From Acidobacteriota bacterium (lineage in GTDB: Bacteria > Acidobacteriota > Terriglobia > Terriglobales > Acidobacteriaceae): a stretch of DNA of 64,000 bases. The translations under genes were made by a program, and so were the position numbers. The notes below the pieces were generated by a model. That model was not told the origin of the DNA and did no database searches. It saw nothing but the letters and a program-made list of their open reading frames with translations. The stretch's first letter is position 1; each line of letters opens with the position of its first letter. This document shows positions 32,988 through 60,154 of this stretch, one piece after another. The DNA lies in contig JAJZBZ010000004.1 of NCBI GenBank assembly GCA_021846275.1, forward strand, positions 124,001 to 188,000, in the 5' to 3' direction.

Positions 32988-33194
32988 GAATCTGGGAAGA
33001 GATGAGGCCGGATGCGCCGGGCGAGACCCTATGGCCTCCCGCTTGCCTGCGGATGGCTTCAGGAAACGGCGACGCTGGCCGGAATGCCGATGCCGCCTGC
33101 GCGGCAGCCTATCTAAAAATTTTCTAATGCGTCTCGCTTCACTCCGGTCCGTCTCTTGCTCGTCTCCGCCTCGAATCTCATCTCCGGACGGTCC

Positions 33195-33656
33195 ATGGCA
33201 TCAGCGGCACCCACCTCCGACACCACGTTTCGCCCGACGCCTCCGGCGCTCGCGGCTGATCTTGCCCGCGCGGACAGGGCGCAGCCTGACGGGGCGAGAC
33301 TGGACGCTGCGGGCACCGGGACGCGGCCGGGCGAATCGGTCACCGACCTGGCGACCCGCGATGCGGCGGTCGAGCGCGCGGTGGTTTCACTGGGGGATGT
33401 CGGAGCCGGGAGCGAACCGGATGAGGACGGGATTCCCGCAAACGTCTTGCCACTGCCGGTGATGGTGGCCGTGGCGGTTCCGGTGCGGAACTTTCGCGTG
33501 CGGAATCTGCTGGCGATGCGCGCGGGCACGGTGCTGGAGTCGCAGTGGGGTCATGGCGAGGATATTCCGCTTGCCTCGGGCGATGTGCCGCTGGCGTGGG
33601 CGGAGTTTGAGGTTGTGGACGCGCAGCTTTGCGTGCGTGTGACGCGGCTGGCCTGA
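33195..33656 (+). CDS. SpoA-domain protein (FliN/FliM C-terminal-like), second copy
   Basis: A 153-residue protein with about 85 disordered residues and a C-terminal SpoA (FliN/FliM C-terminal) domain: VMVAVAVPVRNFRVRNLLAMRAGTVLESQW, then IPLASGDVPLAWAEFEVVDAQLCVRVTRL. SpoA domains build the base of the C-ring and bind FliH. It lies directly before fliO, whereas the main fliN is at 41754 after fliM, so the cluster codes for two FliN-like proteins. It could be a second C-ring subunit or an export-gate adaptor. ATG 33195 is preferred; a TTG at 33156 is in frame. It begins a new unit after the flgE terminator. Confidence 0.75.
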   Translation: MASAAPTSDTTFRPTPPALAADLARADRAQPDGARLDAAGTGTRPGESVTDLATRDAAVERAVVSLGDVGAGSEPDEDGIPANVLPLPVMVAVAVPVRNFRVRNLLAMRAGTVLESQWGHGEDIPLASGDVPLAWAEFEVVDAQLCVRVTRLA

Positions 33657-36213: not shown

Positions 36214-37437
36214 ATGGCTGGCGACCGCACAGAAAAAGCGACACCGCAACGACGCGACAAGGCGCGGCGCGAGGGCGACATCACGCATAGCCGCGAGCTG
36301 ACGTCGGCGGCGGGCACGCTGGCCGGGGTGATGCTGCTGCGCGTGGCCTGGGGCGAGTTTCTTGCGCGGTGGGATGGGTCTCTGGAGACGGTGATGGGGC
36401 TGGGGAATGCGGCGCACTGGGAGAGCGCGGCGATGGCGGGGACGCTGCGCGCGCTGCTGACGGAGATGGGCGCGATGCTGGCTCCATTTGCGCTGGTGGG
36501 CGCGGCGGTGGCGGCCGGGACGCTGGGCGCGGGGCTGCTGCAGACGGGGGGATTGCAGATTCATCCGCAGGTGCTGGCCTGGAAGCTGGACCGTGTGAGT
36601 CCGCTGGCGAATGCGAAGAACATGTTTTCGCTGCGCGCGCTGGCAAGGCTGGGAAAGTCGCTGGTGCCGACAGCGTTTCTGGCGGTCTTTGTGATTGCGC
36701 GGATTGAGCGGCAGTGGACGACGGCGCCGTTTTCGACCGAGCGCATGGCGATCCTGGGCAACGATGTGTGGACCCTGCTGCTGGCCTCGGCGTGGGTGAT
36801 GTTTGGCTGGGCGCTGGTGGACTACATCGTGGAGTGGCGCAGCCGCGAGATGCGCCTGCGCATGAGCCGCGAGGAGATGCGCGAGGAGTTTCGCGACACG
36901 GAGGGCAATCCGCAGATTCGCGGACGCATTCGCAACCTGCAGCGGGCGGCGCGGCGGCGGCGCGTGAAGCAGGATGTGGCGAAAGCGGCGGTGGTGATCA
37001 CGAATCCGACGCACTACGCGGTGGCGCTGGGATTTGACTTCGCGACCATGGAGGCGCCGAAGGTGCTGGCCAAGGGGCGGAATCTGATGGCCGAGGAGAT
37101 CAAGCAGGAGGCGCGCTGGGCCGACGTTCCGGTGATTGAGAATCCGCCACTGGCGCGCTCGCTCTATCGCGTGGTGGAGCCGGGGCAGTCGATTCCGGTG
37201 GATCTGTATGCGGCGGTGGCCTCGATTCTGGCGTATCTCTATCGCCAGCGCGTGGCCGAGAGCGCGCGACAGCGGCAGGCGGCGAAAAATCCGGGCAACG
37301 GGCAGCCGCCCCGGCGGAGTGCCGAGCCGACGCTGGCGCGCATTGCCGGGTCGGGACGGGGAGCGGCGCGCGGGCGACGCGGCGGCGCGAAGAGCGGGCC
37401 GGGGAACGAGGACGGGAAAGGCGGGAAGAACGAATGA
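36214..37437 (+). CDS. flhB: Flagellar export switch protein FlhB
   Basis: A 407-residue FlhB, which switches secretion from rod/hook to filament substrates. The N-terminus DRTEKATPQRRDKARREGDI is diagnostic, and four membrane segments lie between about 30 and 215. The self-cleavage motif NPTH is at 264-267, followed by YAVALGFD and the cytoplasmic domain with APKVLAKGRNLMAEEIK. The last 60 residues are a basic Gly/Arg-rich tail longer than usual. The end overlaps flhA by four bases (ATGA). Confidence 0.97.
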   Translation: MAGDRTEKATPQRRDKARREGDITHSRELTSAAGTLAGVMLLRVAWGEFLARWDGSLETVMGLGNAAHWESAAMAGTLRALLTEMGAMLAPFALVGAAVAAGTLGAGLLQTGGLQIHPQVLAWKLDRVSPLANAKNMFSLRALARLGKSLVPTAFLAVFVIARIERQWTTAPFSTERMAILGNDVWTLLLASAWVMFGWALVDYIVEWRSREMRLRMSREEMREEFRDTEGNPQIRGRIRNLQRAARRRRVKQDVAKAAVVITNPTHYAVALGFDFATMEAPKVLAKGRNLMAEEIKQEARWADVPVIENPPLARSLYRVVEPGQSIPVDLYAAVASILAYLYRQRVAESARQRQAAKNPGNGQPPRRSAEPTLARIAGSGRGAARGRRGGAKSGPGNEDGKGGKNE

Positions 37438-39536
37438 GCAGTGTGGCGATGACTCCGACGATGGGAGCGAACCGGGCGGCGTGGCTGGACCGGCTGCGCG
37501 AGTATCTGTTGCCGATTGGCGCGATCAGCGTGATCTTTGTGATGCTGGTGCCGCTGCCGGCGGCGGCGCTGGACCTGTTGCTGGCGATCTCGATGGCCGC
37601 CTCGATGGTGGTCTTTCTGACCGCCGTGCAGGTGCGCCGCGCTGTGGAACTGAGTGTCTTTCCGACGTTGCTGCTGCTGCTGACGCTCTTTCGCCTGGCG
37701 CTGAATATCGCCTCCAGCCGGAGGATTCTGCTGCATGGCTCGGAGGGAACCTCGGCGGCGGGCAACGTGATCGAGGCCTTCGGGCAGTTTGTGGTGGGGG
37801 GCAATTATGTGGTCGGGTTTGTGCTGTTTCTGGCCCTGATTGCGATTCAGTTCCTGGTGGTTTCGCATGGCGCGGTGCGCACGGCGGAGGTGACGGCGCG
37901 CTTCACGCTGGATGCGCTGCCGGGCAAGCAGATGGCGATTGACGCGGATATGAATGCCGGGCTGATCAACGAGCAGGAGGCGCGCCGGCGCCGCCAGGCG
38001 ATTGCGCGCGAGGCGGAGTTTTATGGCGCGATGGACGGGGCGGCGCGATTCAATCAGCGCGATTCGATGGCGACGATTCTGATTACCGCGATCAACATCA
38101 TTGCCGGGCTGCTGATTGGCACGCTGCAGCAGGGGGTTGCGCTGAGCGAGGCGGTGAGGACGTACACGGTGCTGACGGTGGGCGACGGGCTGGTGACGAT
38201 GATTCCCTCGCTGCTGGTCTCCGTGGCCGGCGGCATTACGCTGACGCGCACGAGCGGCGCGGGCACGCTTTCGGGGGAATTGCGGACGCAGTTGTTCGAG
38301 CGTCCGGCGACGCTCTATATCGCCTCGGGCGTCTGCGCGGCGCTGTGCCTGATTCCGGGGCTGCCGAAGCTGACGTTTTTGCTGGTGGCGGCGGGGCTGG
38401 CTCTGATTGCGCGGACGATGGGCAGAGTCGAGACGACGGCGGCGCAGGCGGAGCCGACGGCGGTGGCGACGGGCGCGGCGCAGCCGGCGGCGCAGGAGAT
38501 GGCGGCGCTGCTGCGGACCGAGGAGCTGACGCTGGAGATCGGCTTCCAGCTGATTCCGCTGGTGGACGAGAAACAGGGCGGACAACTGCTGAGCCGGGTG
38601 CGCACGCTGCGCCGGCAACTGACGCAGGAGCTTGGATTCCTGATTCCGCCGGTGCATATCTCGGACAATCTGCGGCTGAGGCCGCGGGAGTATCTGTTCT
38701 CGCTGCGCGGGATGGAGATCGGCCGCTGGCAGACGGAGGGAACGCAGTTGCTGGCGGTGACCAGCGATGCGGCGCGCGGGGCGCTGCCGGGGCGGGAGAC
38801 GCGCGAACCTGCGTTTGGTGTGCCGGCGCTGTGGATTGCGCCGGGACTGGAGGACCAGGCGATTGCGGCCGGATATACGGTGGTCGATCCGGTGACGGTG
38901 GTCGCGACGCATCTGGGCGAGATGATGCGCCAGCATGCGCATGAGCTGCTGAGCCGGGCCGAGACCAAGCGGCTGCTGGACAGCCTGAATGATTCGCATC
39001 CCAAGCTGATGGAGGAGCTGGTGCCGAAGCTGCTGACGCTGGGCGAGGTGCAGCGGGTGCTGGAACAGTTGCTGCGCGAGCGCGTCTCGGTGCGCGATCT
39101 GGGCGCGATTCTGGAATCGATTCTGGAGACCGCGCCGCAGAACAAGACGACAGTCGCGCTGGTGGAGGCGGCGCGGCACGCGCTGGGACGCAGGATGATC
39201 CAGCCGCTGCTCGATGGCGAGGGCCAGCTGGCGGTGGTGCTGATGGACGCGGCGCTCGAAGAGGAGGTGCTGAGCACGGTGGCGCAGGAGGCGGGGCAGC
39301 GGCAACTGATGGCTCCCGGACGCGGAGGTGTTCCGGTGATTCGACGGCTGGGCGATTCTTTGAGGCAGCTTATCGGTTCCGCGCCCGCAACGGCGCTTCC
39401 CGTGCTTCTCTGTCCGAGTCCGGCGCGCTACCACGTGAAGCGCTGGATTGAGCCGTGGGTGCCGCGTGTGGCGGTGGTGGCGGCAAGCGATATTCCGCCG
39501 GAGATTCGCCTGCGCGCGGTGGGCACGATTCGCTGA
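37434..39536 (+). CDS. flhA: Flagellar export protein FlhA
   Basis: A 700-residue FlhA, the large export-gate protein whose ring of cytoplasmic domains docks chaperone-substrate complexes. The membrane half (about 20-320) contains ELSVFPTLLLLLTLFRLALNIASSR, FLVVSHGAVRTAEVTARFTLDALPGKQMAIDAD, and the proton-path region with LINEQEARRRRQ. The cytoplasmic half carries GPTATTVEL-like and NVLVRERVSIRDL-like segments (here LLRERVSVRDLGAILE). Length matches the family. It starts inside the flhB stop. No flhF or flhG follows, and fliA comes next. Confidence 0.97.
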   Translation: MSSVAMTPTMGANRAAWLDRLREYLLPIGAISVIFVMLVPLPAAALDLLLAISMAASMVVFLTAVQVRRAVELSVFPTLLLLLTLFRLALNIASSRRILLHGSEGTSAAGNVIEAFGQFVVGGNYVVGFVLFLALIAIQFLVVSHGAVRTAEVTARFTLDALPGKQMAIDADMNAGLINEQEARRRRQAIAREAEFYGAMDGAARFNQRDSMATILITAINIIAGLLIGTLQQGVALSEAVRTYTVLTVGDGLVTMIPSLLVSVAGGITLTRTSGAGTLSGELRTQLFERPATLYIASGVCAALCLIPGLPKLTFLLVAAGLALIARTMGRVETTAAQAEPTAVATGAAQPAAQEMAALLRTEELTLEIGFQLIPLVDEKQGGQLLSRVRTLRRQLTQELGFLIPPVHISDNLRLRPREYLFSLRGMEIGRWQTEGTQLLAVTSDAARGALPGRETREPAFGVPALWIAPGLEDQAIAAGYTVVDPVTVVATHLGEMMRQHAHELLSRAETKRLLDSLNDSHPKLMEELVPKLLTLGEVQRVLEQLLRERVSVRDLGAILESILETAPQNKTTVALVEAARHALGRRMIQPLLDGEGQLAVVLMDAALEEEVLSTVAQEAGQRQLMAPGRGGVPVIRRLGDSLRQLIGSAPATALPVLLCPSPARYHVKRWIEPWVPRVAVVAASDIPPEIRLRAVGTIR

Positions 39537-39588: not shown

Positions 39589-40683
39589 ATGGCGGAAGAC
39601 GAGGCAAAGAGCGGCGCGGTGCGAAGGGCGAGCGGTTCCGGCGTGGCAGTGGAGGCGACACGGTCGGGCAGGGGACAGAAGGCGCAGTCGCGCGGCGGAG
39701 CCGGAGGTGGGGCGGGTGACGCGGCAACGGAACCGAGGATCGGGAGCGAGGATGAGGAGGAGCTAACGGTTGCCGGGGAGTGCATGGCCGAAGCCGGAAG
39801 CGACGATCGGAACCTGGCGGGTGTCTCCGCGCTGAGCCTGGCGGGCGCCGGTTACGGCGCGGGACGGGCGGAGTTTACGCCGGACGAGGAACGGTTGCTG
39901 CTGGAGCATCTGCCGATCGTGCGTTTTCTGGCGCGAAGGATCCACGAGCGGCTGCCGCAACATGTGGAGATGGAGGATCTGGTCTCGGCCGGGGTGGTGG
40001 GGCTGATGGATGCCTTTGCGAAGTTCGATCCGGCCAAGAAGGTGCAGTTTCGCAGCTATGCGCAGTTCCGGATTCGCGGCGCGATTCTGGACAGTCTGAG
40101 GACGCTGGACTGGAGTCCGCGCGAGCTGCGGCGCAAGGGCCGTGCGGTCGAGGAGGCGATCCGGCTGCTGACGGCGAATCTGGGCCGCGCTCCGTCGGAG
40201 ATGGAGGTTGCGCGTGAGCTGGGAGTCGAACTGGAGGCGTATCAGCAGTTGCTGGGCGAGCTGAAGGGTCTGGAGATCGGCACGCTGCACATGGAGCGCA
40301 ATGAGGACTCCGGCGAGGAGGAGCTGGCCTATGTGCCGGGGCGGACGGAGGACGATCCACTTTTTCGCTGCCTGCGCGGCGAGATGCAGGAGCGTCTGGC
40401 GGAGGCGATCGGCGGATTGCCGGAGCGGGAGCGGCTGGTGATGACGCTCTATTACTTCGAGGAGATGACGATGCGCGAGATCGGGCTGGCGCTGGGAGTG
40501 GTCGAGTCGCGGGTCTCGCAGATTCACGCCTCGGCGGTCTTGCATCTGCGCGCTGCGCTGGCGGACCTGGCGCGGCGCGCGGACAAGCGCGCGACGCGCG
40601 GCACGAGTCGCGCGGCGGCTGCGCTGCCGAACGCCATGGTGCAGCGGGCGCAGGCCAGGGCGAGCGCGCCGATCACGCCCTGA
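39589..40683 (+). CDS. fliA: Flagellar sigma factor FliA (sigma-28) with long N-terminal extension
   Basis: A 364-residue FliA/WhiG-type sigma factor for late flagellar genes. Region 2 is LPIVRFLARRIHERLPQHVEMEDLVSAGVVGLMDAFAKFDPAKKVQFRSYAQFRIRGAILDSLR, region 3 follows, and region 4 is LPERERLVMTLYYFEEMTMREIGLALGVVESRVSQIHASAV. About 95 low-complexity residues precede region 2, and there is an Ala-rich tail. ATG 39784 would give a normal-looking 299-residue protein and has GGGGAG three bases upstream; ATG 39589 has GAGGGAG four bases upstream and lies closer to flhA, so the start is uncertain. Its anti-sigma factor flgM is at 49611. Confidence 0.92.
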   Translation: MAEDEAKSGAVRRASGSGVAVEATRSGRGQKAQSRGGAGGGAGDAATEPRIGSEDEEELTVAGECMAEAGSDDRNLAGVSALSLAGAGYGAGRAEFTPDEERLLLEHLPIVRFLARRIHERLPQHVEMEDLVSAGVVGLMDAFAKFDPAKKVQFRSYAQFRIRGAILDSLRTLDWSPRELRRKGRAVEEAIRLLTANLGRAPSEMEVARELGVELEAYQQLLGELKGLEIGTLHMERNEDSGEEELAYVPGRTEDDPLFRCLRGEMQERLAEAIGGLPERERLVMTLYYFEEMTMREIGLALGVVESRVSQIHASAVLHLRAALADLARRADKRATRGTSRAAAALPNAMVQRAQARASAPITP

Positions 40684-40797: not shown

Positions 40798-41757
40798 ATG
40801 GAAAAAACACTCAAACAGGATGAGATTGACGCCTTGTTTCAGGCCGCGCGCGCGACGACGCCGGAGCCGGGTGCCGAGATCAGGGCGCGGGTCCTCCCGT
40901 ATAACTTCGCCTCGGCGGGACAGATTTCCAATGAGCAGTTGCGCGCGATCAGCATGCTGAATGATCTGTTCGCGCGCAACCTGACGCACAATCTTTCCGC
41001 CTGGCTGCGCACGCGGTTGCAGGTGAATCTGGTCTCGGCCGAGCAGATTCCATTCAATGAGTTTCTGTTGCGGATTCCGGAGATTTCCTATATCTCGACG
41101 GTGCGGCTGGAGCCGCTGGGCGCGCTCTCGGTGCTGCAACTGGACCTGGGCATCGCTCCGGCGATGATCGACCTGCTGCTGGGCGGCGAAGGGCAGCCGG
41201 GCGATCTGCGCGAGCTGACGGATATTGAGGAGGCGATCGTGGCCAGCGTGGTGGAGATTGTCTGCCGCGAGCTGACGACGGCCTGGCAGACGGTGGGGCT
41301 GAGCTTCAACTTTGAGCGGCGGCAGATGCAGACACAGACGGCGCGGATCATGCCGGTGACGGAGAAGACGCTTTGCCTGAGCTTTGAGATTCGCATGCAG
41401 GAGTCCTCGGGCCTGCTGAACCTGGCATTTCCGGCCGTGGTGGCCAACACCATCCTGCGGCGGCTGACCGGGGAGTGGGGCGGGCGGCGTCGCCACGCGG
41501 GCGAGACGCGGCGGCGGCTGGAGCAGTCGGTGCGCAGATTGAACTTTGGAGCGGCTTTGCAGCTTCCCTCGGTGCGCATCGAGGCGCGCGCGCTGGAGGA
41601 CCTGGCCGTGGGCAAGCTGATTCGCCTGGACCTGCCCGTGAACCGGCTCTCGGAGCTGCGCGTGGGCGGGCGGAAGCTCCATGACGCGCAGCCGATCCGC
41701 CTTGGCGTGCATCGCGGCGCGCGGCTGGAGCGGGAGATGGAAGGAGCGGAGCGATGA
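40798..41757 (+). CDS. fliM: Flagellar motor switch protein FliM
   Basis: A 319-residue C-ring switch protein. The N-terminal EKTLKQDEIDALFQAA is the CheY-binding segment, with the LSQDEIDALF-type motif. The middle CheC-like domain runs about 45-230 (LRAISMLNDLFARNLTHNLSAWLRTRL; SYISTVRLEPLGALSVLQLDLGIAPAMIDLLLGG). The C-terminal SpoA domain (LPSVRIEARALEDLAVGKLIRLDLP) is short but present. The stop overlaps the fliN start (ATGA). ATG 40798 follows GAGAGTGAGGG. Confidence 0.95.
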   Translation: MEKTLKQDEIDALFQAARATTPEPGAEIRARVLPYNFASAGQISNEQLRAISMLNDLFARNLTHNLSAWLRTRLQVNLVSAEQIPFNEFLLRIPEISYISTVRLEPLGALSVLQLDLGIAPAMIDLLLGGEGQPGDLRELTDIEEAIVASVVEIVCRELTTAWQTVGLSFNFERRQMQTQTARIMPVTEKTLCLSFEIRMQESSGLLNLAFPAVVANTILRRLTGEWGGRRRHAGETRRRLEQSVRRLNFGAALQLPSVRIEARALEDLAVGKLIRLDLPVNRLSELRVGGRKLHDAQPIRLGVHRGARLEREMEGAER

Positions 41758-42560
41758 GCGAGGCGGTGCGTTTTCTGGATTGCTGGACGCAGGTGGCGAC
41801 GAGCCTGCTGACGCAGGCGCTGGTCGGCGAGCCGGTGCTGGAAGAGGCCTTGCCGAAGCCGCTGCCGGAAGGCTCGTTCGGCTTTGCGGCGACGGTCGAT
41901 GGCGAGGAGTCGGGACGGCTGGTGATTCTGCTCGAAGCCGGGTTGCTCGACGCCGCGTTGTTTGGCGAGGTTCCGGATGCGCGCGCGGCCTGGGGCGAAC
42001 TGCTGCGCGAGACGGTGGAGGCGGCCGCGGGTGAGCTGCTGGCGCGAAGCGGAGCGAAATGTCAGGTGACAGGCTTTGGCGAGGCCGAGCCGGAGAGCGC
42101 GATTGCGCGGTCCTTCGAGTTGAAGGCCGGCGAACGGAGCTGGACGGTGCTGGTGGCCAGCGATCTGAAGCCCGTGGGGAGCGAGTCGGCGAAGCAATCC
42201 GCAGCCGGGGCGAGGAAGGCGGCGGCCGAGTCGGCGACTCCCGCGCCGAAATCGAATCGTTCGGAGGCGGTGACGGATACTTCGATGCTTTCTGACGGCT
42301 TGCAGCTTCTGCTCGATGTCGAACTGGAGGCGTCGCTGCGATTTGGCTCGCGCGAGATGCCGCTGGGCGAGATTCTCGACCTGGGTCCGGGCGATGTGGT
42401 GCAACTGGACCGTCATGTGAGCGACCCGGTCGATCTGGTGGTGGGCGACAAGATTGTGGCGCGCGGGGAAGTGGTGCTGGTGAATGGAAACTTCGGGTTG
42501 CGGGTGACCCAGGTGGCCGAGCCGCAGCGCAGACTGGAGAGCATACGATGCCTGTTTTAG
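41754..42560 (+). CDS. fliN: Flagellar motor switch protein FliN with N-terminal extension
   Basis: A 268-residue protein, about twice the length of E. coli FliN. The C-terminal 80 residues are a standard SpoA domain: LLLDVELEASLRFGSREMPLGEILDLGPGDVVQLDRHVSDPVDLVVGDKIVARGEVVLVNGNFGLRVT. The first 140 residues (TQVATSLLTQALVGEP, SGRLVILLEAG, WGELLRETVEAAAGELLA) look like a partial CheC/FliY-type domain but without the ExxN phosphatase motif. A Lys/Ala-rich linker joins the two. It overlaps fliM by four bases and the next gene by 13 bases. Confidence 0.92.
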   Translation: MSEAVRFLDCWTQVATSLLTQALVGEPVLEEALPKPLPEGSFGFAATVDGEESGRLVILLEAGLLDAALFGEVPDARAAWGELLRETVEAAAGELLARSGAKCQVTGFGEAEPESAIARSFELKAGERSWTVLVASDLKPVGSESAKQSAAGARKAAAESATPAPKSNRSEAVTDTSMLSDGLQLLLDVELEASLRFGSREMPLGEILDLGPGDVVQLDRHVSDPVDLVVGDKIVARGEVVLVNGNFGLRVTQVAEPQRRLESIRCLF

Positions 42561-43489
42561 AGCCGCGGAGCGGCGTCTCCGCCGCGCAGAAATCCGCTTC
42601 GTCGAACGACGCGGCCACGCAGGCCGTGTCGTCGGTGGCCTCGCGCCGGGAGGGCATCTTTGGCAACTGCGCCAATCCCGATTGCTCGACCGGATGGCTG
42701 CATCTGTTTCGTCGGCGCGGCGCGCCGATCTTTGAGGGCGGATGGTCGTGTTCGACCGCCTGCACGGAGCGGCGCGTGGAGCAGGCCGTGCTGCGCGAGA
42801 TGGAGGGCCATGGACAGGCGGCGCATGGACAGGGGGCGCGCGCCTATCGGCATCGGATTCCCCTGGGGCTGCTGATGCTGGAGCAGAGATGGATCGACGC
42901 CGGACAACTGCGGCGGGCGCTCGAGGCGCAGCGCAATGCGGGCGAAGGCCGACTGGGAAGCTGGCTGGTGCGTCAGGAGGGGGTATCGGAGCAACTGGTG
43001 GCGCGTGCGCTGGGATTGCAATGGAGCTGCCCGGTGGTTTCGCTGCCGTTTCATGATCGCGAGGCGATGGCTCCGGCGATGCCGCGGCTGTTTGTGGATG
43101 CCTTTGCAGCGCTGCCGCTGCGCATGGCGACCGCAAGGCTGTTGTATCTGGGATTTGAGGACAGGCCGGATCCGGTGGTGGCGCTGGGGCTGGAGCGGAT
43201 GCTCGAGCTGCGCGTGGAGCCGGTGCTGGTGCCGGATGCGGAGTTTCGGCTGGCGCATGCGGAGATGTTGACGGCGCGGTTTCCGCGCGTGGAGCTGCTG
43301 GAGGTTTCGAGCCTGTCGCAGTTGGCGCGCGCGGTCAGTCGTGTGATTGAAAAGGTGAGGCCGGTGGAGTCGCGGCTGGTGCGTCTGCATGATTTCCTGT
43401 GGCTGCGGATGTGGCGTCGCGCGGGCGAGGGAGTGCCGGCGGAGATCGCCGGGGTGGAGGACGTGGTCTGCGCGCTGGGACGGGACTGA
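42548..43489 (+). CDS. Zinc-finger/MshEN-like protein coupled to fliN
   Basis: A 313-residue soluble protein. Cys41, Cys46, Cys68 and Cys72 (NCANPDC and SCSTAC) form a likely zinc site. From about 100 to 240 there is a region like the GspE/MshE N-terminal domain: LGLLMLEQRWIDAGQLRRALEAQR, then LGSWLVRQEGVSEQLVARALGLQWSCPVVSL, the pattern that binds cyclic di-GMP in some type II and type IV pilus ATPases. There is no ATPase domain. The gene starts inside fliN (13-base overlap, GGAG upstream), so it is co-translated with a C-ring subunit. A c-di-GMP or localisation adaptor for the motor is a plausible inference; no known flagellar protein of this build is recognised. Confidence 0.6.
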   Translation: MPVLEPRSGVSAAQKSASSNDAATQAVSSVASRREGIFGNCANPDCSTGWLHLFRRRGAPIFEGGWSCSTACTERRVEQAVLREMEGHGQAAHGQGARAYRHRIPLGLLMLEQRWIDAGQLRRALEAQRNAGEGRLGSWLVRQEGVSEQLVARALGLQWSCPVVSLPFHDREAMAPAMPRLFVDAFAALPLRMATARLLYLGFEDRPDPVVALGLERMLELRVEPVLVPDAEFRLAHAEMLTARFPRVELLEVSSLSQLARAVSRVIEKVRPVESRLVRLHDFLWLRMWRRAGEGVPAEIAGVEDVVCALGRD

Positions 43490-43568: not shown

Positions 43569-43949
43569 GTGAGCGAGATTCGCGTCTTGATCGTGGATGA
43601 TTCGTCGGTGATGCGCAAGATTGTGGAGCGCGCCCTGCGACAGGCCGGGCTGGAGCCGATGGTGGTGCTGGAGGCCGCCAGCGGCGTGGAGGGTCTGGAT
43701 GCGCTGCGCGGCGGCGCGGTGCAGTTGATTCTCTCCGACATCAACATGCCGTCGATGGATGGGCTGGAGTTTCTGCGCCAGTTGCGCGCGCAGAAGCTGG
43801 CAGACGGCGTGCCGGTGGTGATGATTACCACCGAATCGAGCGAGGAGCATGTGCGGCAGGCGATCGAGGCCGGCGCGCAGGGATATATTCGCAAGCCGTT
43901 CACGGCCGAGCAGGTGAAGGAGCGGGTGTTGCCGCTGCTGGCGGCCTAG
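43569..43949 (+). CDS. cheY: CheY-like single-domain response regulator
   Basis: A 126-residue receiver domain alone. Asp10 and Asp11 (LIVDD) bind Mg2+, Asp57 in LILSDINMPSMDG is the phosphorylation site, Thr87 (MITTES) and Lys109 (YIRKPF) complete the switch. It has no output domain, as for CheY, which binds FliM to change rotation. Its place between the C-ring genes and cheX supports a chemotaxis role. No cheA, cheW or receptor gene is in the window. The start is GTG 43569 with AAGGAG upstream. Confidence 0.85.
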   Translation: MSEIRVLIVDDSSVMRKIVERALRQAGLEPMVVLEAASGVEGLDALRGGAVQLILSDINMPSMDGLEFLRQLRAQKLADGVPVVMITTESSEEHVRQAIEAGAQGYIRKPFTAEQVKERVLPLLAA

Positions 43950-44114
43950 CGCGGGAGTCTGGATCCGCATCCGCTACACAAAAGACCGGGCGATGGATTG
44001 GCGCAGGGACGCATCGGCCAGGAGGAATCTGCGAGCTGGGACGGCAGACAAGTGGCGCAGGCTCCTGGGCGCGGGGATTGGGGCAAAAGGCGGCAGCAGG
44101 GAGGCAGGACGATT

Positions 44115-44600
44115 ATGGCGCAGTCGCTGCGTGAGAATCTTCAAACGATTGCGGATCCAAGGCATCTGCAATCGAGCGTCGAAGAGGTCTTTGAGACGAT
44201 GCTGGGCGTGCGGTGCGAGATGGTTCCGTGTTCCGGAGCAAGCTCGCCGGAGACGATCACCTCGGTGGTGGGTTTCGGCGGCATGCTGACGGGCGCGTGT
44301 GTCTTCCGCTCCGACGGCGCGACGGCGCTGGCGATTGCCGCGCGGCTGACCGGCATGAGCTTCACGGAGATGGACGATACGGTGAAGGATGCGATCGGCG
44401 AGATATGCAACATGCTGGCCGGCGCGTGGAAGGGCAAGGTTCCGAACCTCTCGGCCAACTGCGGACTTTCCATTCCGGCGGTGATTACCGGACGGGACTA
44501 CAGCATTCACGTGCTGGCGCCGGAGTTTCGCCTGCATCAGTGTTATCGTTTCGACGGATCGGGCTTTGAAGTGACGATCATCTGCGACGGCCTGCGCTAG
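44115..44600 (+). CDS. cheX: CheX-like CheY-P phosphatase
   Basis: A 161-residue protein of the CheC/CheX/FliY phosphatase family. The catalytic motif ExxN is DAIGEICNMLAG, with Glu96 and Asn99. VVGFGGMLTGACVFRSDG and ALAIAARLTGM are the flanking strands and helix. There is only one motif, as in CheX rather than CheC. It would remove phosphate from the CheY-like protein encoded 165 bases upstream. ATG 44115 was chosen since GGGAGG lies upstream and the domain begins there. Confidence 0.82.
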   Translation: MAQSLRENLQTIADPRHLQSSVEEVFETMLGVRCEMVPCSGASSPETITSVVGFGGMLTGACVFRSDGATALAIAARLTGMSFTEMDDTVKDAIGEICNMLAGAWKGKVPNLSANCGLSIPAVITGRDYSIHVLAPEFRLHQCYRFDGSGFEVTIICDGLR

Positions 44601-44734: not shown

Positions 44735-45469
44735 ATGGACAGTGGATACTATGCCGCGTATGCCGGATATGTTGCGCGGATGCAGGCGCTCGATACGGCG
44801 GCCGATAACCTGGCCAATGCGCAGACGGTCGGCTACCGTGCGGAGCGGGAGAACTTTCGCTCGGCCTTACTGGATCCGCTGAATGGCAACTCGCAGCTCG
44901 GCTCGACGGTGAACAACTACGGCGTGGTGCATGGCGACCAGCTGGATATGAGCCAGGGCGCGCTGACGGCGACGGGCAATCCGCTGGATCTGGCGATTCA
45001 GGGCGAGGGATTCTTTGCGACGCAGACCGCCTCCGGCGTGCGCTACACGCGCAATGGCGCCTTCCATCGCAGCAGCACCGGGATCCTGCTCAACGGCAGT
45101 GGCGATCCGGTTCTCTCCACGCAGAACAAGCCGATCATGATTCCGCCGGGCGAGATTGCGGTCGGCGACGATGGCGTGCTTTCGGTGGACGGCGGCGCGG
45201 TGGCCGTCGTGGGCGTCTTCCAGTTTCCGAAGGGAACGCGGCTGACGCCGGAGGGAACGAACCGCTATCGCGCGCCGGACAAGGTGAAGACGACGATCGC
45301 CGCGGTGCCGATTCATTCGCATGCGCTGGAGGAGTCGAATCAGGACACGATCACCGGCAGCATGAAGCTGATCCTGATGCAGCGCCAGGCGGAGACGATG
45401 CAGAAGGCGCTGACGATCTTTCACATGGATTTCAACAAGACTGCGGCGGAAGAACTGCCCCGCGTGTAA
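44735..45469 (+). CDS. flgF: Flagellar basal-body rod protein FlgF
   Basis: A 244-residue proximal/distal rod component. The N-terminal axial motif is YYAAYAGYVARMQALDTAADNLANAQTVGYRAERENF (4-40), then GNPLDLAIQGEGFFATQT and, at the end, LEESNQDTITGSMKLILMQRQAETMQKALTIF. It is shorter than flgG and precedes it, as usual. ATG 44735 has AGGGGG upstream. The 134 bases before it hold C/T-rich sequence but no clear promoter. Confidence 0.9.
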   Translation: MDSGYYAAYAGYVARMQALDTAADNLANAQTVGYRAERENFRSALLDPLNGNSQLGSTVNNYGVVHGDQLDMSQGALTATGNPLDLAIQGEGFFATQTASGVRYTRNGAFHRSSTGILLNGSGDPVLSTQNKPIMIPPGEIAVGDDGVLSVDGGAVAVVGVFQFPKGTRLTPEGTNRYRAPDKVKTTIAAVPIHSHALEESNQDTITGSMKLILMQRQAETMQKALTIFHMDFNKTAAEELPRV

Positions 45470-45531: not shown

Positions 45532-46320
45532 ATGATACGAGCGCTTTATACGGCGGCCAGCGGCATGATGGCGCAGCAGATGAATCTGGACACGATTGCC
45601 AACAATCTGGCCAACTCATCGACGACGGGCTTTCATCAGCTTCGGCTACAGTTTCAGGACATGCTCTACGAGAACCTGATTACGCCGGGCGCGGCGCAGA
45701 CCGAATCGACGATCTCGGCGGGCCTGCAGATCGGCCTGGGCACGCTGCCGGCGGCGACCGAGGTGATCATGACGCAGGGCGAGCTGAACCAGACGAACAA
45801 TCCGCTGGATGTGGCCATTGAAGGCGCGGGATTCTTTCAGGTGCAGCAGTTGAACGGGCAGATCGCCTATACGCGCGCCGGCCAGTTTCAACTCAACAAC
45901 CAGGGAACGATCGTGACCACGAACGGGGACATTGTGATTCCGACGATCACCGTGCCGGCGAATGCGACTTCGGTGACGATCACTCCGTACGGAGCGGTGA
46001 ATGCGACGCTGCCCGGGCAGACGAATCCCTCGCAGCTTGGGCAGCTTCAACTGGCGACCTTTCCCAATCCGGGCGGTCTCGAAAGCATGGGCGGCAACCT
46101 GCTGACGCAGACGCTGGCCTCGGGGAATCCGATTGTGGGCAATCCGGGTGGAGTCGAAGGCCTGGGCATGCTGCAGCAGGGGTATCTGGAGAACTCGAAC
46201 GTGGATGTGGTCACGGAGTTCGTGCAGATGGTGCTGGCGCAGCGGGCCTACGAGTCGAACTCGAAGGTGATCAAGGCCGCCGACCAGATGTACTCCCAGG
46301 TGAACAACATGACGCAGTGA
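45532..46320 (+). CDS. flgG: Flagellar distal rod protein FlgG
   Basis: A 262-residue distal rod subunit. IRALYTAASGMMAQQMNLDTIANNLANSSTTGFHQLRLQFQDMLYEN (2-48) is almost the family consensus, including the FlgG-type FQDMLYE. NPLDVAIEGAGFFQVQ and the terminal LENSNVDVVTEFVQMVLAQRAYESNSKVIKAADQM complete it. Length equals E. coli FlgG (260). The stop overlaps the flgA start. Confidence 0.97.
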   Translation: MIRALYTAASGMMAQQMNLDTIANNLANSSTTGFHQLRLQFQDMLYENLITPGAAQTESTISAGLQIGLGTLPAATEVIMTQGELNQTNNPLDVAIEGAGFFQVQQLNGQIAYTRAGQFQLNNQGTIVTTNGDIVIPTITVPANATSVTITPYGAVNATLPGQTNPSQLGQLQLATFPNPGGLESMGGNLLTQTLASGNPIVGNPGGVEGLGMLQQGYLENSNVDVVTEFVQMVLAQRAYESNSKVIKAADQMYSQVNNMTQ

Positions 46321-46919
46321 GGGCGGGGATGAGACGGAATCGGGCGGGAATCAAATCCAGACTGAGATTGTTGTGCGTGGTGTGGCTCATGCCTTTTGCC
46401 TTTCGCAGCGCGGCTCGCGCCGCCGATACGGAGCCAGTGGCGGCGCAACAAAAATCCGCTTCCGAGTGTGTGCGCGTTGTGGAAGATCGTGCAACGGGGC
46501 TGCGCTGGCGCGTAGAGCGGCAGGGCGGCGGCAAACCGAATCGGATGGTTCTGATCGAGGGTTCGTCGAAGCAGGAATGCGCGTCCTCGTCGGCGGGGCG
46601 CGGGACTGAGGAGCAAGGTGCGAAGGCTGCGCAGTCGGCGGCGGGAAATTCGGCGCGAAGCAGCGCCGCGACCGAGGCCGCGCCGGTGATTCAGGTGGGG
46701 GAGCGGATTGTCGTCGTGCAGAAAGGAGCCGCGCTGGAAGCTCGATTTCCGGCCGTGGCGCTGGCGGCGGCGGTGCCGGGCGGTCCGGTGCTGGCGCGGC
46801 TGGAGATCGGGAACGGCGATTTTGGAAAACGAGCCGGGCGCGTGGTGCGGGCAACGGCGGTGGCAAGGGGTTTGGCGCAATGGGACGGGGAATCGCAGCA
46901 GAATGGAGCGGGATGGTGA
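46317..46919 (+). CDS. flgA: FlgA-like P-ring assembly chaperone, reduced form
   Basis: A 200-residue exported protein with a signal peptide (RLLCVVWLMPFAFRSAARAA, about 17-36). The C-terminal 65 residues resemble the SAF-type end of FlgA: VIQVGERIVVVQKGAALEARFPAVALAAAVPGG, then RLEIGNGDFGKRAGRVVRATAVA. The N-terminal half is Ser/Ala-rich and not recognisable as the FlgA SAF domain. The position between flgG and flgH is that of flgA, and FlgA helps build the periplasmic ring from FlgI. GTG 46317 overlaps flgG; ATG 46329 is an alternative. Confidence 0.65.
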   Translation: MRAGMRRNRAGIKSRLRLLCVVWLMPFAFRSAARAADTEPVAAQQKSASECVRVVEDRATGLRWRVERQGGGKPNRMVLIEGSSKQECASSSAGRGTEEQGAKAAQSAAGNSARSSAATEAAPVIQVGERIVVVQKGAALEARFPAVALAAAVPGGPVLARLEIGNGDFGKRAGRVVRATAVARGLAQWDGESQQNGAGW

Positions 46920-58846: not shown

Positions 58847-60154
58847 TCAGGCGGAAAGACCGCGACGAACCTCTTTTTCCTCGTACATGCGCAGGTCTGC
58901 GGCGATGTAAAGAGTGGAGGCGTCCTGCGCATCCTGCGGGTAGACGGCGGCGCCGATGCTGGCACCGATGAACAGCGTGTGGCCGGAGACGGAAAACGGT
59001 GCGCGCAGCAGATCGGTGAGCGCATCGGCCACGATGTGGATGTCGCGTGGCGAGTTGGGTTGCGCGAGAATGAGCGAGAACTCGTCGCCGCCAGTACGCG
59101 CCAGCAGGTCGCCGCGCCGAATCCGCCCCTGCATGCGCTCGGCCACCCGCTGCAGCAGCAGGTCTCCGATGTGATGGCCGTAGGAGTCGTTGACCTGCTT
59201 GAAGCGGTCGAGATCAATCTGCAACAGGCCCAGGCTTTCGCCGGTCCGCATGCAGGCTTCAATGCGCTCCGAGAGCTGGCTCTGGAATTTCCGGCGATTG
59301 GGCAGGGAAGTGAGATCGTCGTGAAGCGCGAGATACTGGGAGCGCTCAATCTGGTTCTCCAAAAGAAGCACCAGCATGCCGACGGCGACGACGTACTTGG
59401 GCAGATTCCAGACTTCGCTTTCGATGTGGATGGCGGGCAGCTTCGCCTGTATCAGCGGGCCAAGAACGAAGACCAGCGCCCAGGCCAGGAGTCCGCCGAT
59501 GGTGATGATGGAGCCGGAACTGGTGCGCCCGCGATAGTTGGTCCAGAAGACCAGGCAGCAGCCGAAGTAGACGGTGAAGAGAATGGCATTCAGCGCCATA
59601 TCTCCGCCGTTTGCATTGCGCGGCGGACCCCACAGGAGCATTGCCGTGCCAAGCGCGAAGTAAAGCGTCACGGTGATGTATCGCGGCGCAGCCAGCAGAT
59701 TGCGCGGCGATAGCAGCACGACGAGCAGCGGGCCGAGGGCTGTGAGGATCGCGGTTGCGGCGAGGCTCCAGCCAGGAGCCGCCGGCAGCAGAACGAGCAG
59801 GATATAAACCGACGGGGGCACGCTCAGAGCGGCGGTCATCCAAAGCGAGGAGGGATGGTTGCGGTAACGCACCGAGGCGCGCATGAAAATGATCGCGGTG
59901 GCGACGAGGGTGACCAGGGTGACGGCTGCCGCGAAGTAACCGGCCCAGCCATTCCATTGCTCGCCCATGCTGGCGGCGAAATGGAGGAGAATCAGAATCC
60001 AGCCGTAGAGCCAGAGGCGCGAGTCGGCAACCGGACTGTCTTGCTGCTCCAGTTGTTCGGGTGGCTCGCGGCGCAGAATGGAGGCAAAGGCCAGGACCAG
60101 TGCGGTGATTGCCAACAGGTCGGGGATTTTTGTCCAGTCCATCCGCTGCTCCAT
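58847..60154 (-). CDS. Membrane-bound diguanylate cyclase (GGDEF)
   Basis: A 435-residue protein with about eight membrane segments in residues 10-275 (for example LLAITALVLAFASIL, WILILLHFAASM, FAAAVTLVTLVATAIIFM, YVVAVGMLVLLL) and a cytoplasmic GGDEF domain from about 280. The active site is TGGDEFSLIL near 353, and RRGD five residues before it is an intact inhibitory I-site, so the enzyme is probably active and product-inhibited. It would make cyclic di-GMP from two GTP. No EAL domain is attached. The neighbouring flagellar cluster and the MshEN-like protein at 42548 make a motility link possible. Confidence 0.92.
   Translation of the reverse strand: MEQRMDWTKIPDLLAITALVLAFASILRREPPEQLEQQDSPVADSRLWLYGWILILLHFAASMGEQWNGWAGYFAAAVTLVTLVATAIIFMRASVRYRNHPSSLWMTAALSVPPSVYILLVLLPAAPGWSLAATAILTALGPLLVVLLSPRNLLAAPRYITVTLYFALGTAMLLWGPPRNANGGDMALNAILFTVYFGCCLVFWTNYRGRTSSGSIITIGGLLAWALVFVLGPLIQAKLPAIHIESEVWNLPKYVVAVGMLVLLLENQIERSQYLALHDDLTSLPNRRKFQSQLSERIEACMRTGESLGLLQIDLDRFKQVNDSYGHHIGDLLLQRVAERMQGRIRRGDLLARTGGDEFSLILAQPNSPRDIHIVADALTDLLRAPFSVSGHTLFIGASIGAAVYPQDAQDASTLYIAADLRMYEEKEVRRGLSA

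Follow-up and report, generated by a model that had tools for sequence, protein, structure and literature searches.

The 64,000-nucleotide stretch of contig JAJZBZ010000004.1 from an Acidobacteriota bacterium that was analysed here (the window) holds, within a long run of flagellar genes, a gene at positions 42548-43489 (plus strand, ATG start, TGA stop) for a protein of 313 amino acids (aa; P0001) that combines a four-cysteine element (Cys4), an MshEN domain and a C-terminal domain. With moderate confidence, we regard the protein family represented by this gene as a dedicated, co-translated receptor for cyclic diguanosine monophosphate (c-di-GMP) in the flagellum of Acidobacteriota. The ATG lies within a CGATGC of the last codons of the upstream fliN/fliY-like gene, so that the two genes share 13 nucleotides (nt; 42548-42560, plus strand), and a GGAG placed 8 nt 5' of the ATG (42536-42539, plus strand) may serve as ribosome-binding site. 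The initial annotation, made from the sequence alone, had already placed the start 13 bases inside fliN and had pointed to a four-cysteine site and a resemblance to MshEN domains without an ATPase. All these claims were borne out: the open reading frames (ORFs) at 41754-42560 and 42548-43489 overlap as stated, the cysteines C41, C46, C68 and C72 are invariant in the aligned relatives, matches to MshEN were found with NCBIfam, a family profile and phmmer, and no ATPase domain was detected. The structure prediction and the survey of neighbourhoods proposed there agreed as well: the predicted fold best matches c-di-GMP-bound MshEN domains, and related genomes have the gene beside fliN or in other flagellar surroundings.

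The ORF is a real gene, because its G+C content by codon position (0.74, 0.50 and 0.80) resembles that of its neighbours and the ratio of nonsynonymous to synonymous substitution rates (dN/dS) against four congeners is 0.19-0.26. It occurs as a single copy in its own genome. Named relatives, among them Terracidiphilus gabretensis (now listed as Occallatibacter gabretensis, family Acidobacteriaceae), point to Terriglobia as the source class, which is the class referred to below. A chance ORF in a G+C-rich genome is ruled out by the conservation across the phylum. Likewise, a broken or mis-called remnant of pilB is ruled out by the same dN/dS and by a clear score gap to PilB-type rows; among 299 genomes of the class the full-length family matches scored 188.9 bits or more and covered the model from position 30 or before to 278 or beyond, and the next rows reached at most 97.5 bits and mostly represented the MshEN stretch in frames of 550-730 aa. 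That the first residues, MPVL, are conserved is no evidence of function, because their codons also form part of the 3' end of the upstream gene.

By profile, predicted fold and most of the motif residues, residues 103-245 represent an MshEN domain. The window protein matched the NCBIfam model c-di-GMP_motif (NF053729) with an E value of 2e-9 (37.1 bits), and further NCBIfam matches were obtained to NfrB (E 2e-11) and PilB (E 2e-4). MshE (5htl) was found by the single sequence with phmmer (E 4e-5) and by the family profile (E 6e-17). The main alignment (A3) comprised the window protein and 71 of the 77 loci from the contig scan described below, with L110, L118, L135, L141, L149 and L161 excluded; two further alignments covered 38 of the 45 class members (A1) and 54 of the 75 FliN-like ORFs from the scan loci (A4). 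All 72 rows of A3 matched NF053729 at E 1e-5 or better, and 41 of them matched PF05157 at E 0.01 or better. Among ten tested of the 18 remote members, nine exceeded the Pfam cut-off and all ten the NCBIfam cut-off. The AlphaFold2 model has a mean predicted local distance difference test score (pLDDT) of 85.6; over residues 101-290 the block values range from 88 to 98, with block means of at least 93 for residues 111-290 and 88 for 101-110. Foldseek returned 19 solved structures at E 0.001 or better, all of them MshEN-type domains, led by the c-di-GMP-bound PilF GSPII-B (E 2e-8) and including MshE (E 9e-8). VIA-align gave Z 12.4 (root-mean-square deviation, rmsd, 2.9 over 135 residues) with PilF GSPII-B 9glg, Z 12.2 with 8pdk and Z 11.4 (rmsd 3.0, 135 residues) with MshE 5htl. 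Profiles, model and fold matches assign residues 103-160 (42854-43027, plus strand) to the MshEN_N subdomain, and model and fold matches assign residues 161-245 (43028-43282, plus strand) to an alpha/beta subdomain like MshEN_C.

Binding of c-di-GMP by this domain is likely, judged from the motif residues and the predicted fold. In MshE the ligand is contacted by R9, L10, G11, L25, L29 and Q32 of one motif and by R38, L39, G40, L54, L58 and Q61 of the other (PMC5013675). Mapped onto these residues, the predicted motif 1 spans residues 105-128 (P105, L106, G107, L121, L125, Q128; 42860-42931, plus strand) and the predicted motif 2 residues 135-158 (R135, L136, G137, V151, L155, Q158; 42950-43021, plus strand), with P105 in the place of R9. 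Over the 72 rows of A3, motif 1 was read as P in 72, L in 65, G in 72, L in 72, L in 64 and Q in 70 rows, and motif 2 as R in 67 and K in 5, L in 55 and I in 16, G in 72, V in 61, L in 71 and Q in 72. Across the phylum (56 rows), the mean entropy was 0.65 over eleven contact columns, the R9 place (entropy 1.52) being excluded; it was 2.13 over the remaining columns of MshEN_N and 1.90 over other columns with hydrophobic or small residues, and none of 100,000 permutations gave so low a value. Within the MshEN core of the aligned sequences, conservation is highest in the putative ligand-contact columns. The extended consensus at the first position of motif 1 is Arg, Lys or Leu, and in the PilF study binding tightness decreased there from Leu over Lys to Arg (PMC11731258). 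In the 17 remote members that show motif 1, this position is Arg in 8, Lys in 6, Leu in 2 and Thr in 1. One motif of the third PilF domain starts with PLG in our alignment, and the domain as a whole has a dissociation constant similar to that of MshE (PMC11731258).

In front of the MshEN domain, the model places the short Cys4 element followed by a long helix (residues 70-95), and behind it, after the helical MshEN_N and the alpha/beta part, a C-terminal beta-alpha-beta-beta-beta domain. The Cys4 element (C-x4-C-x21-C-x3-C from C41 to C72, leading into the helix; 42668-42763, plus strand), which we take to resemble treble-clef fingers, very probably binds zinc; all 72 rows of A3 and all 17 remote members showing the region keep its four cysteines. 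The C-terminal domain (residues 246-313 in the model; 43283-43486, plus strand) contains the invariant residues W285 and R287 of a W285-x-R287 motif, present in 72 of 72 rows and in 18 of 18 remote members. Structure comparison with the whole-protein model gave no clear known fold for this domain; glyoxalase-like half-modules appeared at Z about 3, which is too weak to use. Searches against PHROGs gave no match to the family protein, PilZ was not matched in P0001 at E 10, and DUF4388 was matched in 6 of the 72 rows (best E 0.001). No ATPase family was among the Pfam matches; the PilB model is matched over its first 137 positions only.

The genomic setting ties the family to the flagellum. A GTDB-wide contig scan with patterns from close relatives, a design that cannot show absence elsewhere, yielded 77 loci, all with Acidobacteriota-type titles. 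Flagellar genes stand beside the gene in 77 of 77 loci, including those of Acidipila rosea, Paracidobacterium acidisoli and Edaphobacter modestus; in two loci the gene runs off the contig. The exact 13-nt overlap is found in 71 of the 73 loci holding both genes when the start is tested directly (58 with mechanical starts). Among the 45 class members, own genome included, every gene has a flagellar setting and 43 lie directly 3' of fliN; L052 starts near a contig end, and in L037 and L044 fliM lies elsewhere and the gene stays with fliN. In this set the exact 13-nt overlap occurs in 23 of 43, and a 4-nt overlap is possible in 12 of the other 20. The scan and the class-genome set are not independent, because 15 of the 77 scan loci are on the same contigs as loci of the latter. 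Outside the class, all 18 members are found among flagellar or chemotaxis genes, 17 preceding flgF and one preceding cheX and cheY; fliM and fliN lie upstream in 16 of them, and the other two are on short contigs. Nearly all scan loci carry titles of Acidobacteriaceae or are unplaced; L127 (JASHSS010000643.1) has the family in the usual operon under the title Bryobacteraceae.

Furthermore, in the genome samples the gene was found only together with FliM. A sample of 100 relatives contained 43 genomes with gene and FliM, 9 with FliM only, none with the gene only and 48 with neither, when matches of at least 54 bits in frames not resembling PilB were counted and a fragment at a contig end in G012 was excluded; the congener G001 is without both. 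The 299 genomes of the class comprised 79 with both, 77 with FliM only, none with the gene only and 143 with neither (Fisher P 1e-28, a value that is indicative at most because the genomes are related). At the level of the phylum the gene was detected at E 1e-30 in 53 of 396 genomes, each of which also matched FliM; 10 of this sample's 113 FliM matches are below the FliM cut-off. The phylum and class samples overlap by at least 47 genomes, and 35 of the 53 gene-bearing genomes also belong to the class sample. In three genomes (G042, G058, G324) FliM and the family are each present twice. The 77 class genomes with FliM only belong mainly to family f6 (62), followed by f4 (6) and f13 (1), with 8 others scattered. 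A re-search of 12 genomes, 8 of them FliM-bearing, at lax thresholds gave for these 8 PilB-type matches alone in four, except for an additional scrap of 24 positions in one of the four, G173, and nothing in the other four. In G062, G068 and G084 no family member was detected among the ORFs 3' of fliN, the contig of G068 ending about 440 nt past fliN. Flagellates of the class without the family (f6, f4, f13) mostly have a stronger FliM match, about 170-210 bits, compared with at most 160 in carriers; because of this difference within the class, two flagellar lineages may exist there. Outside the class, family carriers have FliM at 186-213 bits.

The idea of a motor-associated sensor draws on the domain build and the flagellar context. 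According to this model, c-di-GMP would sit between the two 24-residue motifs of the MshEN domain, and the Cys4 element and the C-terminal domain with W285-x-R287 would anchor the protein at the flagellar base. The anchor point would most likely be the FliY-like/FliM/FliN switch ring encoded on the same message. Binding of the ligand could then reorient the receptor domain, which might change motor output or switching as c-di-GMP rises. Docking on the C-ring appears about evenly balanced as a prediction from these features, and an effect on flagellar rotation a little less probable than that. The broader proposal, namely that Acidobacteriota possess a phylum-wide, non-PilZ c-di-GMP receptor in the flagellar switch that is co-translated with a FliY-like subunit and replaces YcgR-type brakes, is made tentatively and may well not hold. 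The genome itself has nine GGDEF matches. One of them, a predicted diguanylate cyclase (PF00990, E 1e-44), is encoded in the window at 58847-60154 on the minus strand, roughly 15 kb away from the family gene. The YcgR-type N-domains PF12945 and PF07317 were each found in 0 of 61 relatives, in searches whose positive controls worked, and there is thus space for a receptor of another kind. Of the 61 relatives, 52 do have PilZ domains.

Several observations weigh against the receptor reading. The window protein alone stays just under the curated cut-off of NF053729 (37.1 vs 38 bits), and no Pfam family matches it even at E 10. Motif 1 starts with Pro in every row of A3, the linker between the motifs has six residues in place of the expected five, the place of D12 is taken by Leu and that of I19 mostly by Trp in the class, and in the window protein the Gly of motif 1 is R114 and that of motif 2 is E144. 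Regarding the tie to the switch ring, the gene of G057 (L072) stays with fliA and has fliM-fliN on another contig (L083), and outside the class other ORFs separate the gene from fliN; in L168, for instance, they include a small ORF and one for an HDOD protein. G257 carries a single family member alongside two FliM. Moreover, FliM without the gene is common (in the class sample 77 of 156 FliM-bearing genomes, in that of the phylum 60 of 113), hence the protein is not required by every flagellum. Finally, the four PilZ matches in the own genome make another c-di-GMP route to the motor possible.

Among the other explanations, the one with most in its favour is a c-di-GMP-dependent factor for assembly or placement that acts on export, number or position of flagella and not on rotation, although we consider it unlikely. 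In 10 of the 18 loci outside the class, the gene and the ORF before it share 8-20 nt (with mechanical start choice), and four preceding ORFs (L168:4586-5008, L170:6012-6470 on the minus strand, L181:4534-4995, L177:4652-5041) are small with a hydrophobic start, which reads like a membrane anchor. Three of the four weakly resemble DUF2802/DUF6115, and in polar flagellates FlhF is recruited by FipA, a DUF2802 protein (PMC11620751). FliH, a part of the export apparatus, is a further binding partner of SpoA proteins (4yxc). However, the DUF2802/DUF6115 matches are all below cut-off, the fourth ORF has none, and the one in L170 is 201 nt distant and not overlapping. In the class, the FliY-like gene and the family gene leave no room between them for such an ORF, other places not having been searched for it.

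The departures in motif 1 could also mean that the MshEN fold was kept for protein binding and c-di-GMP binding was lost, as in XpsE/GspE, which would make the protein a structural adaptor. The invariant Pro in the class fits this view, and MshEN-type domains are contained in solved protein complexes such as EpsE-EpsL (2bh1) and PilB-PilZ (7lkm). XpsE carries the changes G11V, I19R, L29R, R38G, G40L, L54H, L58C and Q61V (PMC5013675). In contrast, the family keeps G11, R38 (as R or K), G40, L58 and Q61 nearly throughout and L29 mostly, has Val or Ile for L54, and shows at the I19 place mostly Trp in the class instead of Arg. In addition, motif 1 opens with R, K or L in 16 of 17 remote members, and conservation is higher in the contact columns than in other hydrophobic ones; a structural adaptor thus appears improbable, somewhat more so than the assembly factor. 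A regulator of flagellar gene expression, in which the Cys4 element would bind DNA or a sigma factor with c-di-GMP as signal, is by far the least probable explanation. The four-cysteine element and a sigma factor gene three genes upstream would suit such a role, but no DNA-binding family exceeded the cut-off in Pfam or NCBIfam and translation is coupled to a structural switch gene. On balance, the dedicated c-di-GMP receptor remains the explanation that we favour.

Compared with MshE, PilF and PilB, whose MshEN domain (GSPII/T2SSE_N, PF05157, NF053729) has the fold, the two tandem 24-residue motifs and most contact residues in common with it, the family protein is without ATPase and has the Cys4 element in front and another C-terminal domain behind; it is encoded in a flagellar operon, not in pilus or secretion loci, and begins motif 1 with Pro in the class. 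MshEN fusions to CheA, CheX and other signalling domains are on record (PMC5013675), hence there is precedent for a connection of MshEN with chemotaxis; compared by description, these fusions use MshEN as a signalling module joined to chemotaxis proteins, whereas the family protein is a separate protein with its Cys4 element in the flagellar operon. MshEN has also been reported in glycosyltransferases (PMC12943098). Similarly, the c-di-GMP-activated glycosyltransferase NfrB, the closest NCBIfam match, uses MshEN as regulatory module away from pilus ATPases, but the match is limited to its MshEN stretch (model positions 481-611 of 723) and the family protein has no glycosyltransferase part. The motor effectors of Caulobacter are also non-PilZ c-di-GMP effectors, but with a CheY-like fold (PMC5677366).

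The control of flagella by c-di-GMP is known mainly through PilZ proteins, MotI being one such PilZ-domain brake. The family protein may work, by analogy, like a motor brake: its likeness to YcgR, FlgZ and MotI would lie in the proposed job as motor receptor, with MshEN here in place of PilZ there. A conserved flagellar-operon protein with a receptor fold suggests, from sequence and model, a direct link between c-di-GMP and the flagellum in Acidobacteriota, which are very common soil bacteria. Our literature search found nothing on the coupling of c-di-GMP to swimming in this phylum and, at the level of titles and abstract openings, no description of an MshEN protein from a flagellar operon. 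If c-di-GMP is bound, MshEN, described in pilus and secretion ATPases, signalling fusions and glycosyltransferases, would also serve as a flagellar receptor, and if the whole proposal is true, a single receptor fold would read both kinds of motility machinery in a cell, the pilus type and the flagellum type.

One correction to the initial annotation, which named the upstream gene fliN and its product a C-ring subunit, concerns this partner (41754-42560, plus strand; 268 aa), which is not the ordinary FliN. It contains a SpoA/FliMN_C part at residues 185-255 (PF01052, E 1e-23) and a CheX/CheC fold at residues of about 1-145. The model has a mean pLDDT of 76.6, with 89-98 over residues 1-140 and poor values in the SpoA part. 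The N-terminal domain aligned with CheX 6vpw at Z 13.1 (rmsd 2.8, 130 residues), with FliM middle domains at Z about 9-10 (best 10.1) and with FliY at Z 9.8. Based on this CheX-like N-terminal domain and the SpoA C-terminus in sequence and predicted structure, the partner is FliY-like rather than a plain FliN; the build of FliY, a CheC-type domain plus SpoA, is similar, but the first domain of the partner fits CheX better. The CheX phosphatase signature is ExxN. At this place the helix of the partner seems, by eye, to read E-T-V-E, hence its CheX-like domain may not be catalytic.

An ordinary short FliN, a SpoA protein of 166 aa, is encoded at 33156-33656 (plus strand; PF01052, E 7e-9) and precedes fliO-fliP. 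Pfam recognised in the flagellar run flgD, flgE, this short FliN-type SpoA protein, fliO, fliP, fliR, flhB, flhA, a sigma factor, a CheY-like receiver, two FlgE/F/G-type proteins, flgH, flgI, fliM, the fliN-like partner, cheX, flgK and flagellin. Upstream of the partner lie, all on the plus strand, flhA (37434-39536; PF00771, E 3e-234), a sigma factor gene with sigma-70 regions 2, 3 and 4 that is named fliA by position (39589-40683) and fliM (40798-41757; PF02154, E 4e-38). The family gene is followed on the same strand by a cheY-like receiver gene with an assumed GTG start (43569-43949; PF00072, E 1e-30) and by cheX (43998-44600, start not settled; PF13690, E 1e-17 on 44106-44597). Next come flgF (44735-45469) and flgG (45532-46320), also on the plus strand, which encode FlgE/F/G-type domains and are told apart by position. 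A candidate flgA at 46317-46919 has no Pfam match and is named by position; it is poorly conserved among the relatives in which it was found (25-47% identity).

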